Assembly: GCA_016207245.1 (NCBI GenBank)
Contig: JACQQA010000008.1
Coordinates: 1 to 58,551 of the forward strand
From: Candidatus Magasanikiibacteriota bacterium
GTDB lineage: Bacteria; Patescibacteriota; Patescibacteriia; Magasanikbacterales; UBA922
Direction of reading: 5' to 3'
Length of the DNA stretch: 58,551 nt
Shown here: positions 4,841 through 43,990 of the stretch, one piece after another
How positions within the stretch are numbered: position 1 is the stretch's first letter
Layout of the letters: every line of letters starts with the position of its first letter
Made by a program: the position numbers and the translations under genes
Notes under the pieces: generated by a model
What the model was told of the DNA's origin: nothing
The model's database searches: none
What the model saw: the letters and a program-made list of their open reading frames with translations, nothing else

Positions 4841-4902
4841 CAGAATACAGATAACAGAATGCAGTGTGTGGGTGTATCGTGTTATCTGCATTCTGTATTC
4901 TG
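4841..4902. repeat. Inverted repeat with heptamer-iterated arms (CAGAATN type)
   Basis: Left arm CAGAATA CAGATAA CAGAATG, loop of about 20 bases, right arm TCTGCAT TCTGTAT TCTGAAT. It fills the gap between the exonuclease and the next gene; a false upstream start codon at 4864 lies within it. Confidence 0.85.
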
Positions 4903-4914
4903 AATCTTAATCGT

Positions 4915-18503: not shown

Positions 18504-18532
18504 AAAAAATGTTGGAAATGGTATAATGTAAA

Positions 18533-18572
18533 TGAGTTTGTAAGTGGGTAAGTAAATAAGTGTGTAAGTGAG
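18533..18572. repeat. Single arm of tandem GTAAGTNN octamers
   Basis: GTAAGTGG GTAAGTAA ATAAGTGT GTAAGTGA. A near-identical arm occurs at 36194-36230. No partner arm nearby. Confidence 0.7.
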
Positions 18573-23293: not shown

Positions 23294-23365
<72 letters not shown>

Positions 23366-23370
23366 CTAGT

Positions 23371-23812
23371 AATTTAAGATTTCTGATTTAAGATTTGTGA
23401 TCGGCAACCATCCGCGGCCATTTTAAGTTTTAAATTACAAAATGAATAGTGAAGAATTAAAAAAACGGACAAAAGATTTTGCTTTACGAATTTTAAAATT
23501 GGTAAATGCTCTACCAAAAACATAATTGGTTTGCCAATCGGAAACCAAATAATTCGTTCGGGAACATCTACCGCCGCCAACTATCGAGCCGCACTAAGAG
23601 CAAGGTCGACGTCGGAGTTTATTGCCAAACTGCGAATCGTAATTGAAGAAGCTGATGAGACAGTATTTTGGTTGGAAATTATTATTGAGGGCAACCTAAT
23701 GAAAAAGGAGCTTGTCGTGCCTTTGCTTCAAGAGGCCAACGAAATAGTAGCAATCATGGTTTCCACCTGTAAAACAACAACAAAAAATCTTACATCTTAA
23801 ATCATAAATTAT
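23371..23812. mobile_element. Inverted-repeat-bounded S23 cassette within the tRNA cluster
   Basis: The left arm (23371-23402) reads in heptamers ATTTAAG ATTTCTG ATTTAAG ATTTGTG; the right arm (23786-23812) is its imperfect complement in heptamers ATCTTAC ATCTTAA ATCATAA. They enclose the S23/four-helix-bundle ORF between tRNA-Phe and tRNA-Pro. A second arm-like copy (TTTTAAGTTTTAAATTAC) lies just before the ORF. The organisation recalls rRNA intervening sequences, but located between tRNA genes, and it shares its heptamer layout with the cargo-less inverted repeats elsewhere in the window. Confidence 0.6.
23442..23800 (+). pseudogene. S23-type four-helix-bundle protein, frameshifted
   Basis: The first frame encodes MNSEELKKRTKDFALRILKLVNALPKT and stops at 23523. 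The remainder continues in another frame as IIGLPIGNQIIRSGTSTAANYRAALRARS...FIAKLRIVIEEADETVFWLEIIIEG through 23800. Joined, these give an approximately 118-aa protein of the 23S-rRNA-intervening-sequence/bAvd four-helix-bundle family. One extra A in the CCAAAAACA run (about 23514-23521) would restore the frame. This may be a true pseudogene, a homopolymer assembly error, or slippage. Confidence 0.75.
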
Positions 23813-23814
23813 AT

Positions 23815-23887
23815 CGGGGCGTAGCTCAGTTGGTAGAGCGCCTGGTTTGGGACCAGGAGGCCGCAGGTTCAAGTCCTGTCACCCCGA
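23815..23887 (+). tRNA. tRNA-Pro (TGG)
   Basis: Acceptor CGGGGCG with 3' CACCCCG (one C-A mismatch at position 6-67), anticodon loop TTTGGGA (TGG), discriminator A, no encoded CCA. The stop codon of the minus-strand ORF at 23879 lies inside its 3' end, so this tRNA is the likely integration site of the adjoining island. Confidence 0.92.
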
Positions 23888-24802
23888 CAATGTGAAACAA
23901 TCGGATTTTTCAAGAGAATAGAAATTATGGTCGGCCAAACGTACGGCGGCGTTTTCGGCGTAACCACCAACAATTTTAAAACCCCCCACCCACAACCACG
24001 ACACTTTTCTTCCCCCGAGACGGCGGTTCGTTCCGTGCTCTGCCACAAATGATTTTATTTCATTAAAATCATTCGACACCGCCAATTTTTTGGCTTGGTG
24101 AGCGGCTTTCCAGAATGTTCGCATAGGTTTGATCCATGAAATGCCTTTCCGTCCAAAATCCGATTTCTTCCGGTTGAAGTCGGTTTTTTGTTTAATGAGT
24201 TCTTCTTTTTTAACAAGATAGATTTCTTTTTCAATGGTTCCGTCTAAATAAGAGTCAACCAACTTATTTAATTTCTGATCATTTTCTTGGGTTTTGATTT
24301 CAAGATTTTGGACGAAAGAGGCATTGTTGTTTTTTAATTCTTTTTCCCACTGTTCAATTTGGGCAAGCCCTTGGCTATGCCAGTCATCGGAGATGGCGAC
24401 CGTTTGAAGATTGGTTTTTATTTGTTCGGCAAGTTCCTTTTCTTGCACATACTTTTGTGAGCACGGCCCAAGGCGTTTAGTACATCGGTAGTAGCGGTAA
24501 GTCCCACCATGACCATGTATATCCTGAAGGGAGTGTTTATCTAAATCTTGGAATGCTCGAACAACTTTTTTCCTACTTCCTGCTAGCGTGCGCTGATACC
24601 ATCCAGCTCTTTTATTATTATGGTAAGGATCAAATTCGTCACGCATGTTCTGTATAGTTTTTGGTTTTACGCTTAATATTTTACCGATACTCCTCGCGGC
24701 TTCATTAAAAGATGAATAGCCGAGATCGGCCACGGCTTCTCTATCAAAACGAGAGAGATAATAAGCGCTTATTAGCGCGAGTTTATTATTATCAGACATC
24801 AT
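23879..24802 (-). CDS. Chimeric ORF: R-M-associated N-terminal domain joined to serine recombinase C-terminus
   Basis: 307 aa. Residues ~1-93 (NNKLALISAYYLSRFDREAV, SFNEAARSIGKILSVKPKTI, NMRDEFDPYHNN.RAGWYQR) resemble an N-terminal domain I associate with restriction-type endonucleases. From about residue 97 (GGTYRYYRCTKRLGPCSQKY) the sequence turns into the second half of a recombinase zinc-beta-ribbon, followed by the coiled coil and the tail of large serine recombinases common in Patescibacteria. The catalytic resolvase domain and the first zinc-ribbon cysteines are missing. The last codons and stop are formed by the tRNA-Pro 3' end. Probably an insertion junction; a functional fusion is possible. 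Confidence 0.65.
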   Translation of the reverse strand: MMSDNNKLALISAYYLSRFDREAVADLGYSSFNEAARSIGKILSVKPKTIQNMRDEFDPYHNNKRAGWYQRTLAGSRKKVVRAFQDLDKHSLQDIHGHGGTYRYYRCTKRLGPCSQKYVQEKELAEQIKTNLQTVAISDDWHSQGLAQIEQWEKELKNNNASFVQNLEIKTQENDQKLNKLVDSYLDGTIEKEIYLVKKEELIKQKTDFNRKKSDFGRKGISWIKPMRTFWKAAHQAKKLAVSNDFNEIKSFVAEHGTNRRLGGRKVSWLWVGGFKIVGGYAENAAVRLADHNFYSLEKSDCFTLSG

Positions 24803-34538: not shown

Positions 34539-35624
34539 ATGGAACATGTTGCGCATATCAGTAAAAACAAACAAACATTGGAATTGCGGTTCGCGATTTT
34601 GAAATTGATCCGCGAATGGTTTTGGTCGCAAGGATTTACCGAAGTTGAAACGCCGAATATCGTCAAAGTCCCCGGGCAAGAACCATATCTTTCGCCGATG
34701 CCGGTAAAGTTGCATAATGAGCAAGGCGAGGAATTTTTTGGTTATCTCCATACTTCGCCGGAATATACCATGAAAAAAATGCTGGCGGCCGGTTTTGACA
34801 AGATTTTTTCTTTGGGGAAATGCTACCGCGATTACGAAAGTTTCGGCGGAACGCATAATCCGGAATTTACGATGCTGGAGTGGTATAGGGTGGAGAGTGA
34901 TTATAAAAAAATAATGGAGGATGTGGAGGAGTTGATCGGGTTTATTATACAGAAGTTGATGGAACATAGAACATTGAACATGGAACACCGAACGAAAGAT
35001 CTTTGCTCCATGCTCAATGCTCAATGTTCAATACGGGTTAGTATGAGCGATTTATGGGAGAAATTTGTCGAAGTGGATTTGGATGAGTGTCTGACGAGCG
35101 AGGCCATGTTGAGATTGTGCAGAGAAAAAAAATATGATGCGAAAGACAGCGAGAGCTATGAGGATTTGTTTTATCGGATATTTTTGAATGAGATTGAGCC
35201 GAAATTGAAAGAAGTGGGCGGTATAATTATTTATGATTATCCGGCAAAACTGGCGGCGCTGTCGCGTTTATCCGCGTCAGATCCGCGTTATGCCGAACGG
35301 TTTGAGGTTTATGTGAACGGTATAGAGTTGGCTAACGCTTTTTCCGAACTGACTGACACGGATGAGCAATTAAAACGTTTAAAAGAGGAACAAGAATTGA
35401 GACGAAAGCTCGGCAAAGAGGTTTATAATATAGATGAAGAATTTCTGTTAGCGGTCGGACAAATGCCAAAGTCAGCTGGCATTGCCTTGGGAGTTGATCG
35501 GCTGGTTCAGATCATTGCGGCCCTTCGGCATGGCTCCCCTCGGCCTGAGCTCGGGACGAAGGCAGGGCAAGTTTGCAAAAACATTGACGATGTGATAACA
35601 TTGCCAGCGAGTAAACTATTTTAA
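34539..35624 (+). CDS. epmA: EF-P lysine ligase (EpmA/PoxA/GenX-like, truncated LysRS)
   Basis: 361 aa. Class II synthetase core without the N-terminal anticodon-binding OB fold: RFAILKLIREWFWSQGFTEVETP (motif 1), SLGKCYRDYESFGGTHNPEFTMLEWYRV (motif 2) and GIALGVDRLVQIIA (motif 3). This is the layout of EpmA, which attaches beta-lysine to EF-P, and efp begins 1 base downstream. Two repetitive insertions are in frame: MEHRTLNMEHRTKDLCSML... (34962-35031) and LRHGSPRPELGTKAGQ (about 35519-35573), the latter just before the C-terminal NIDDVITLPASKLF. No EpmB is in the window. A stand-alone catalytic LysRS paralogue is the alternative. Confidence 0.85.
   Translation: MEHVAHISKNKQTLELRFAILKLIREWFWSQGFTEVETPNIVKVPGQEPYLSPMPVKLHNEQGEEFFGYLHTSPEYTMKKMLAAGFDKIFSLGKCYRDYESFGGTHNPEFTMLEWYRVESDYKKIMEDVEELIGFIIQKLMEHRTLNMEHRTKDLCSMLNAQCSIRVSMSDLWEKFVEVDLDECLTSEAMLRLCREKKYDAKDSESYEDLFYRIFLNEIEPKLKEVGGIIIYDYPAKLAALSRLSASDPRYAERFEVYVNGIELANAFSELTDTDEQLKRLKEEQELRRKLGKEVYNIDEEFLLAVGQMPKSAGIALGVDRLVQIIAALRHGSPRPELGTKAGQVCKNIDDVITLPASKLF
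34962..35031. repeat. Heptamer-iterated inverted repeat inserted in epmA
   Basis: Left arm GGAACAT AGAACAT TGAACAT GGAACAC CGAACGA; right arm TGCTCCA TGCTCAA TGCTCAA TGTTCAA. The inverted repeat encodes about 25 extra residues and preserves the frame. Confidence 0.9.
35519..35573. repeat. GC-type element inserted in epmA
   Basis: Contains the 27-base stretch (35537-35563) that is identical to 1676-1702 in the xer gene. Relative to the genes the two copies are in opposite orientation, so they encode unrelated peptides. Confidence 0.85.
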
Positions 35625-37430: not shown

Positions 37431-37536
37431 AAATGTCTAATGTCTAATTTCTAATTACAAATAAAATTTCCAACGTCAATTTTTATTGGGCATTTGTCAT
37501 TTTATTAGAAATTTGACATTTGGAATTAGAAATTTT
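37431..37536. repeat. Inverted repeat with heptamer-iterated arms (AATGTCT type)
   Basis: Left arm AATGTCT AATGTCT AATTTCT AATTACA; right arm TTAGAAATTTGACATTTGGAATTAGAAATTT. It occupies the whole gap between ruvB and the membrane-protein gene and touches the ruvB stop codon. Confidence 0.85.
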
Positions 37537-40890: not shown

Positions 40891-40904
40891 AGTTTTACAT
40901 GATA

Positions 40905-41020
40905 CAGAATACAGATAACAGAATACATCCGCGTTTGATTTTACGCCCCAACACCCGCTCGTTGCATTCTGTTATCTGGTAACTGTATTTGTGCAACGTT
41001 ATCTGGTTTCTGTATTCTGT
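40905..41020. repeat. Compound inverted repeat with heptamer-iterated arms (CAGAATN type)
   Basis: Left arm CAGAATA CAGATAA CAGAATA; two right arms, TGCATTC TGTTATC TGGTAAC TGTATTT and GTTATC TGGTTTC TGTATTC. The loop CGTTTGATTTTAC matches the element at 2115-2213. It also supplies the last codons of rpe (GQNTETR-stop). Confidence 0.85.
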
Positions 41021-41690: not shown

Positions 41691-41724
41691 TTCAGAATGC
41701 AGAAATCAGATAACAGAATACATT
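41691..41724. repeat. Single CAGAATN-type heptamer arm
   Basis: TTTCAGAATG CAGAAAT CAGATAA CAGAATA, between rpiB and rpe. Confidence 0.75.
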
Positions 41725-42187
41725 ACGAATTTTCAATTTCCAATTTTTTGAGTTTTTTTAAGCGGCGGAGGCGGCGAGTGATTGGTTTGAAATCGGTTTG
41801 CAGGAATTTTTTTACAATGGCGGATGCTTTGGTGGAATTTACAGCGCTGGCGGCTAAACAGAGGATGTTGCCATTATCATGGAGGCGAAGCATTTCCGCG
41901 CCTTCCGCGCTGTAGCCGATTGACGCGCGCGCGCCGGCTATTTTGTTTGCCGTGATACACATGCCGTGTCCGCTGTGGCAGATTAAAATACCGCGATTAC
42001 TTTCATTTTTAACCACAGCGCGGCTTACTTTTATCGCGTAATCAATCGCATCATCACACTCAATACGCTTTTTCGCCCCCAAATCTTTTACTTCTTTTTT
42101 GAGTTTATTTTTTATATAGATTTTCAGTTTTTCTTTTAGCTCAAATCCCATGTAGTCAGAGCCAATGTAGATAGTTGGTTTGGACAT
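41723..42187 (-). CDS. rpiB: Ribose-5-phosphate isomerase B
   Basis: 154 aa: TIYIGSDYMGFELKEKLK, CDDAIDYAIKVSRAV, GILICHSGHGMCITANKIAGARASIGY and HDNGNILCLAASAV match RpiB/LacA. The catalytic Cys is in ICHSGHGM. Interconverts ribose-5-P and ribulose-5-P, the substrate of rpe encoded next. The C-terminus is very basic (RRLRRLKKLKKLE). Confidence 0.9.
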   Translation of the reverse strand: MSKPTIYIGSDYMGFELKEKLKIYIKNKLKKEVKDLGAKKRIECDDAIDYAIKVSRAVVKNESNRGILICHSGHGMCITANKIAGARASIGYSAEGAEMLRLHDNGNILCLAASAVNSTKASAIVKKFLQTDFKPITRRLRRLKKLKKLEIENS

Positions 42188-42247
42188 ATTTTTTAGTATA
42201 AGCAGGGTTATTATAGAAGATTATGGGCGGCTTGGCAAGCCCGGTGT

Positions 42248-42336
42248 TCAGAATGCAGAATGCAGATAACATGACTCATGCGATGCGGAGACTCTGTTGT
42301 TTGAATGTATTCTGTTATCTGTATTTTGCATTCTGA
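42248..42336. repeat. Inverted repeat with heptamer-iterated arms (CAGAATN type)
   Basis: Left CAGAATG CAGAATG CAGATAA CATGACT CATGCGA; right TGTATTC TGTTATC TGTATTT TGCATTC. Confidence 0.85.
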
Positions 42337-43859: not shown

Positions 43860-43871
43860 AGAATTAACAAA

Positions 43872-43990
43872 CAGAAGACACAAGACACAAGAAACAAGAA
43901 ACAAATAAAATTAAATATTTAAACTTCAAATTACAATTTTTATATCTTAAATTTTAGTTTGAAATTTATTTGTATCTTGTGTCTTGGTTA
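43872..43990. repeat. Inverted repeat with heptamer-iterated arms (GACACAA type)
   Basis: Left GACACAA GACACAA GAAACAA GAAACAA; right TTTGTATCTTGTGTCTTGG. The internal loop contains a second inverted repeat (AACTTCAAATT / AGTTTGAAATTT). It fills the NYN-pnp gap. Confidence 0.85.

Follow-up and report, generated by a model that had tools for sequence, protein, structure and literature searches.

Several described bacterial systems resemble the locus examined here. The intervening sequences (IVSs) of 23S rRNA genes in Coxiella, Leptospira and Azospirillum are inserts of about 430 nt that carry terminal inverted repeats and an open reading frame (ORF) of the S23 (IVP) family; they have been described only within 23S rRNA and as simple stems, in Coxiella as a 28-bp stem (PMC4990558). 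The intergenic heptamer repeats known from Beggiatoaceae, Cyanobacteria and Bacteroidetes (TAACTGA; STRR) are direct repeats with no reported protein partner, and their spread is thought to be horizontal by a mechanism that is not known (PMC4679880). Here, we followed up a first-pass annotation of a 58,551-nt contig of a Candidatus Magasanikiibacteriota bacterium (JACQQA010000008.1; this whole stretch is referred to below as the window), in which an S23 gene lies between heptamer arrays in a tRNA cluster. We show that, in many phyla, S23 (TIGR02436) genes lie between inverted arrays whose unit is specific to each element. The window cassette is best explained as a decayed copy of this widespread mobile element, which is about 430 bases long and has S23 as its only gene. 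These elements share protein family, length and terminal inverted repeats with the known IVSs, and iterated intergenic 7-nt units and host phyla with the TAACTGA repeats. Unlike the known IVSs, they are intergenic, occur in many phyla, have iterated five-anchor units and have ORF-less relatives. We found no account of S23 with iterated arms in the open-licence literature, although it may have been described elsewhere.

The window cassette lies outside 23S rRNA, in the spacer between tRNA-Phe (23294-23366) and tRNA-Pro (23815-23888), and has terminal inverted repeats. Its left arm (23372..23401, + strand) consists of four heptamers (ATTTAAG, ATTTCTG, ATTTAAG and ATTTGTG) plus AT, giving five in-register AT anchors, and its right arm (23785..23809, + strand), inverted with respect to the left, is likewise heptamer-periodic by Tandem Repeats Finder (TRF). 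The two arms match each other in inverted orientation over 23 nt at 83%, and their pairing score of 17.0 exceeds 14, the 99th percentile for left and right arms drawn from different S23 loci. The first-pass description of heptamer-periodic inverted arms around an ORF between these tRNA genes was thus borne out. Its assignment of the ORF to S23 also held, both by TIGR02436 (E 3.7e-18, 65.7 bits, curated cut-off 24) and by the Pfam family 23S_rRNA_IVP (PF05635; E 3e-11, 43.9 bits, curated cut-off 33.8), but needed the correction that the gene is broken and that the right arm overlaps its last codons. Because of a single frameshift, the N-terminal 27 codons, which start at the ATG at 23442, end at the TAA at 23525 (23442..23525, + strand), and the remainder (23531..23800, + strand; 89 aa, TIGR02436 positions 27-108) lies in another frame. 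Most of the other S23 copies listed have no internal stop. S23 is the sole ORF of the element, which has no recombinase or transposase of its own. The anchor of the window copy is AT/GAT, and that of most other elements is AG.

The first-pass annotation had staked its proposal on the occurrence of inverted heptamer arms at other S23 genes, and iterated inverted arms were indeed found there beyond mismatched controls, in which left and right flanks were paired from different S23 loci. All seven S23 genes of the 687-kb window genome (84% complete) have such arms, each with a different unit of 7-10 nt. Within the same family, 48 loci gave a median score of 18.75 for the true arm pair, versus 8.5 for flanks of different loci, and 36 of them exceeded the 99th percentile of mismatched pairs. 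So did 34 of the 39 loci on viral contigs, all 9 on plasmids and 54 of the 80 in named genomes, or 133 of 176 S23 loci with all sets pooled. The named-genome loci span Patescibacteria, Bacteroidota, Cyanobacteria, Proteobacteria, Acidobacteria, Chloroflexi, Clostridia and others; because the genome scan used one closer S23 subfamily, this sample is biased towards that subfamily and is an uneven survey. A single query against phage records gave no S23 match.

A clear period was evident in 136 arrays, being 7 in 96, 8 in 28 and 9 in 10. The unit contains the dinucleotide AG in 108 of these 136 arrays (reading the 5'-3' strand of each arm towards the gene), and at period 7 this AG is retained in 94-97% of units, the remaining positions varying between elements. 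Counted in register, AG occurs five times in 40 of 108 left arms and 48 of 108 right arms (29 of 108 loci in both arms), four times in 14 left and 10 right arms, and six times in 13 and 6, respectively; at a wrong period, used as a control, the count was never above 3. The peak at five persists after dereplication below 60% protein identity (20/57 left, 25/57 right) and is found at periods 7 and 8 alike, though it is not visible among the 10 loci with period 9. Since there are about 4.5 units per arm at periods 7, 8 and 9, whereas the arms lengthen from 32 to about 40 nt, what is constant is the number of units and not the length of the arm. Arm similarity tracks protein identity (Mantel r 0.22, 0/2000 permutations), and arrays of like period group together on the protein tree, which requires 22 changes of period versus 30-38 in 200 shuffles.

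Individual sites occur both with and without the element, and related elements occupy unrelated sites. The gap between tRNA-Phe and tRNA-Pro measures 448 nt in the window versus 3-37 nt in 14 relatives; absence of the cassette from this cluster in other genomes, which the first-pass annotation had also made decisive, was therefore found. A cyanobacterial plasmid site is filled in Trichormus variabilis (L130) and empty in Nostoc linckia and N. carneum, with flanks 98% identical, and here the junction is exact to the base: AAAAAGTAAT, a 423-bp insert and GTAATTAACAAAT, versus AAAAAGTAATTAACAAAT at the empty site, with a 5-bp duplication, GTAAT. At this same site, 14 bp (two units) are gone from the left arm in Scytonema, and most of the ORF is lost in Nostoc C052. 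Further filled and empty plasmid pairs, with diverged junctions, were found at cas10/cmr3, at an integrase-adjacent site, at L222 and at L260, the last of which has an ORF-less form in L266. At unrelated plasmid loci, L222 and L130 carry elements that are 83% identical.

The tRNA-Phe/tRNA-Pro gap itself looks like an insertion hot spot. In relatives it holds other small inserts, namely, the start of a GIY-YIG-like ORF (L247) and an unassigned ORF fragment (L237), and in L248 and L250 it holds ORF-less periodic palindromes. Elsewhere, the S23 elements L128 and L133 of cyanobacterial plasmids lie within CRISPR-Cas operons (cas6/cas4, cas10/cmr3).

The classic 23S rRNA insert turns out to be the same kind of element in the one case that we examined. 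In Azospirillum lipoferum, the S23 gene on plasmid AZO_p2 (L135) lies inside 23S rRNA (RF02541, 1348.8 bits) and is flanked by arms with the sequence TCAGAGGACGGATGACAGAGGACGGAGGACAG; that is, this IVS has heptamer arms like those of the elements described above.

Some S23 elements have ORF-less counterparts within their own genome or genus, namely, arm pairs that carry their unit. In the window, a period-8 array of the AGTGTGTA unit (18526..18572, + strand) matches an arm of the S23 element L008 from a congeneric genome with a score of 32, versus 20 for the related S23 element L056 of another genus. Inverted heptamer pairs of the GAACATG type (34962..35032) and the AATGTCT type (37432..37534), neither assigned to a strand, match the arms of two S23 elements of the same genome, L005 (19.5 versus 11 for S23 of other genera) and L004 (23.5 versus 8.5), and an array at C3:36172 matches S23 element L018. 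Given these matches to arms from their own genome or genus, several ORF-less arrays of the window are likely non-autonomous relatives, as the first-pass annotation had proposed for the cargo-less repeats as a whole. That proposal did not extend to the most abundant family in the window, CAGATAACAGAATGCA, for which no S23 partner was found among the arms examined. This family has many copies in the genome, including an ORF-less inverted pair at 40904..41020 (no strand assigned); an inverted pair of the ACAAGAC/AAGAAAC type (43867..43986, also unstranded) likewise had no S23 partner.

Copies of CAGATAACAGAATGCA in the window lie at 1655, 2134-2199, 4848-4905, 18602, 40904-41020, 41692-42336, 46330 and 54922; the family forms many inverted pairs about 65-75 nt apart and is densest on contig C9 of the window genome. 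Palindromes of a known type that resemble repetitive extragenic palindromes (REPs), TCTGTCATTGCGAGGA and GACGAAGCAATCC, stand beside heptamer arrays on contigs C1, C3, C7 and C9.

In having a coding copy between inverted repeats and ORF-less inverted copies elsewhere in the genome, the S23 elements resemble the REPIN/RAYT system of REP hairpins and their associated transposases. Unlike that system, however, they lack a Y1 transposase, their repeats are tandem units of 7-9 nt and not single palindromes, and the unit is specific to the paralogue. Short ORF-less inverted-repeat copies of a coding element also recall miniature inverted-repeat transposable elements, but the S23 arrays have no known transposase parent, and no general target-site duplication was seen in 60 elements.

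Of 83 Chryseobacterium purC-purF spacers, about a third hold an S23 element; the others hold remnants or ORF-less palindromes, with different units. Twelve intact S23 ORFs at this site have a median dN/dS of 0.059 at dS 0.80, indicating strong purifying selection and, therefore, a protein that is in use. Across 28 Chryseobacterium copies, the G is invariant in all five AG anchors, whereas other stem positions mismatch and no compensatory base pairs were seen. Compensatory pairing of the arms was accordingly rejected for these copies, and recognition of the anchors is favored over pairing because the anchor G is invariant while the other mismatches go uncompensated. The ORF-less palindromes of several unrelated units, found in different species (L284, L290, L300-L302, L280, L282, L314, L315, L330 and others), have arms that are still complementary after loss of the ORF; they may have arisen by repeated insertion or by arm conversion.

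The nearest folds of the S23 protein are S23 and Avd, the accessory protein of diversity-generating retroelements (DGRs). An AlphaFold model (pLDDT 95.7) matches the solved S23 relatives 2gsc and 2rld, each of which has five chains, and matches Avd (4dwl) and the chains of a DGR ribonucleoprotein (8ube/8ub7) more weakly (TM 0.76-0.79). S23 and Avd have a four-helix fold and a pentamer in common, but their identity is below 12%, arms of tandem arrays are not known for Avd, and no reverse transcriptase (RT) or template repeat/variable repeat (TR/VR) arrangement was seen with S23, the latter without a systematic search. The first-pass suggestion that S23 serves the arms as a trans-acting factor is consistent with the match between five-anchor arms and a five-chain protein, from which we infer one AG anchor per S23 subunit. 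An analogy, and an analogy only, is offered by the trp RNA-binding attenuation protein (TRAP), a ring protein that binds successive (G/U)AG repeats matching its subunits; TRAP has an unrelated fold, 11 subunits and a shorter spacing, and it is not mobile.

That the window cassette belongs to a mobile element of the S23/IVS kind with iterated five-anchor arms is well supported. As to how such an element works, we think it probable that an S23 homopentamer binds the arms for insertion, each arm being one ring site. The homopentamer would be the element's own nucleic-acid-binding protein; each of its subunits would take one anchor dinucleotide, usually AG, of the five that lie 7-9 nt apart in an arm, and the bases between anchors would serve as linker. 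A shift in spacing from 7 to 8 to 9 should be easier on a flexible single strand wrapped around a ring than on a rigid DNA duplex. Once bound, the arms might bring the two ends into proximity, or might keep open a transcript or a single strand of DNA, so that insertion can follow. Arm pairs without an ORF would be non-autonomous or solo forms. Judging by its fold, S23 would not supply the cutting and joining activity, which presumably comes from the host or from another element. A wider proposal, to which we give somewhat less than an even chance, is that these are a class of transposase-less mobile elements, in which the pentamer recognizes two five-anchor single-strand arrays and mobilizes itself together with ORF-less copies; 23S rRNA IVSs would be one niche of this class, and many unexplained heptamer arrays of bacteria would be its debris.

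Several observations weigh against this account. About a quarter of S23 loci have no arms above the 99% control, and below 50% protein identity few loci carry the maximum at five AG (9/21 left, 6/21 right). Similarity between arms keeps step with the protein only where identity exceeds about 60%, units being common to near relatives alone, and the Mantel test of period against protein distance was not significant (200/2000). A clean target-site duplication was seen in only one case (GTAAT), and short duplications are not enriched over 60 elements (13% versus 11% with a 5-nt match), so that target-site duplication as a general feature found no support. Finally, long-term retention at a single site with a dN/dS of 0.06 is also compatible with a host function in place of a purely selfish element.

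This last point bears on what is, in our opinion, the strongest alternative, albeit an unlikely one: that S23 is a regulatory module which binds the five-anchor array beside its own start codon, much as TRAP binds its repeats, and controls translation of S23 or of a neighbor, the ORF-less arrays forming its regulon. In many loci the left arm lies directly 5' of the start codon, and intergenic heptamer repeats before start codons have been proposed as regulator sites (PMC4679880). The strong purifying selection seen in Chryseobacterium, where the site is fixed, and anchors that are more constant than pairing, would also be expected of a regulator. Such a module nevertheless leaves unexplained the inverted right arm, the empty and filled alleles, the 5-bp duplication, the insertion in 23S rRNA and the paralogue-specific units.

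We regard as a little less likely again an RNA element, whose arms pair into a long transcript stem that is cut out by RNase III, as happens with 23S rRNA IVSs, with S23 as passenger or stabilizer and with selection on the stem maintaining complementarity. The IVS of Coxiella (PMC4990558) and the Azospirillum case are precedents, the arms are complementary at most loci, and in the orthologues L007 and L010 a switch between GACTAC and GACTAT affects both arms together. Yet a stem needs neither periodicity nor five anchors, and in the 28 Chryseobacterium copies the non-anchor pairs break freely.

Mobilization in trans by a Y1 (TnpA/RAYT-like) transposase acting on hairpins, which the arms could form, with S23 as cargo or accessory, seems improbable. 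S23 number does correlate with the presence of Y1_Tnp in 46 genomes (rho 0.63), but the overall load of elements could lie behind this; at the cut-off, 11 S23-bearing genomes lack Y1 and RT alike, and heptamer arrays are absent from known REPs. A single Y1 transposase, at C4:30591-30935, was noticed in the window genome.

Retromobility of the DGR type, with an RT as partner and S23 as an Avd homologue, is very improbable despite the likeness of fold, given that S23 number is not tied to RT presence (rho 0.18, p 0.24), that RVT_1 is missing from 10 of 21 genomes with five or more S23 genes, and that no TR/VR arrangement was seen, no systematic search for one having been made. RT was rejected as an obligate partner of S23 for want of correlation, and the first-pass link to Avd stands at the level of the fold and not in any DGR-type arrangement. 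An RT elsewhere in the genome, for which that annotation had advised a search, is present on a contig other than the window as an RVT_1 match (G000:C9:2940-3589; L126, L127), but it is split over two frames and hence probably broken.

Our preferred account, in which a homopentamer binds two iterated arms, lends itself to a direct and cheap binding test, made possible by the combination of a five-anchor arm and a five-chain protein. If true, it would trace three separate puzzles to a single source: what the widely occurring "four helix bundle protein" (S23) does, how 23S rRNA intervening sequences arose and spread, and where at least part of the heptamer arrays in Cyanobacteria, Bacteroidota and Patescibacteria come from.
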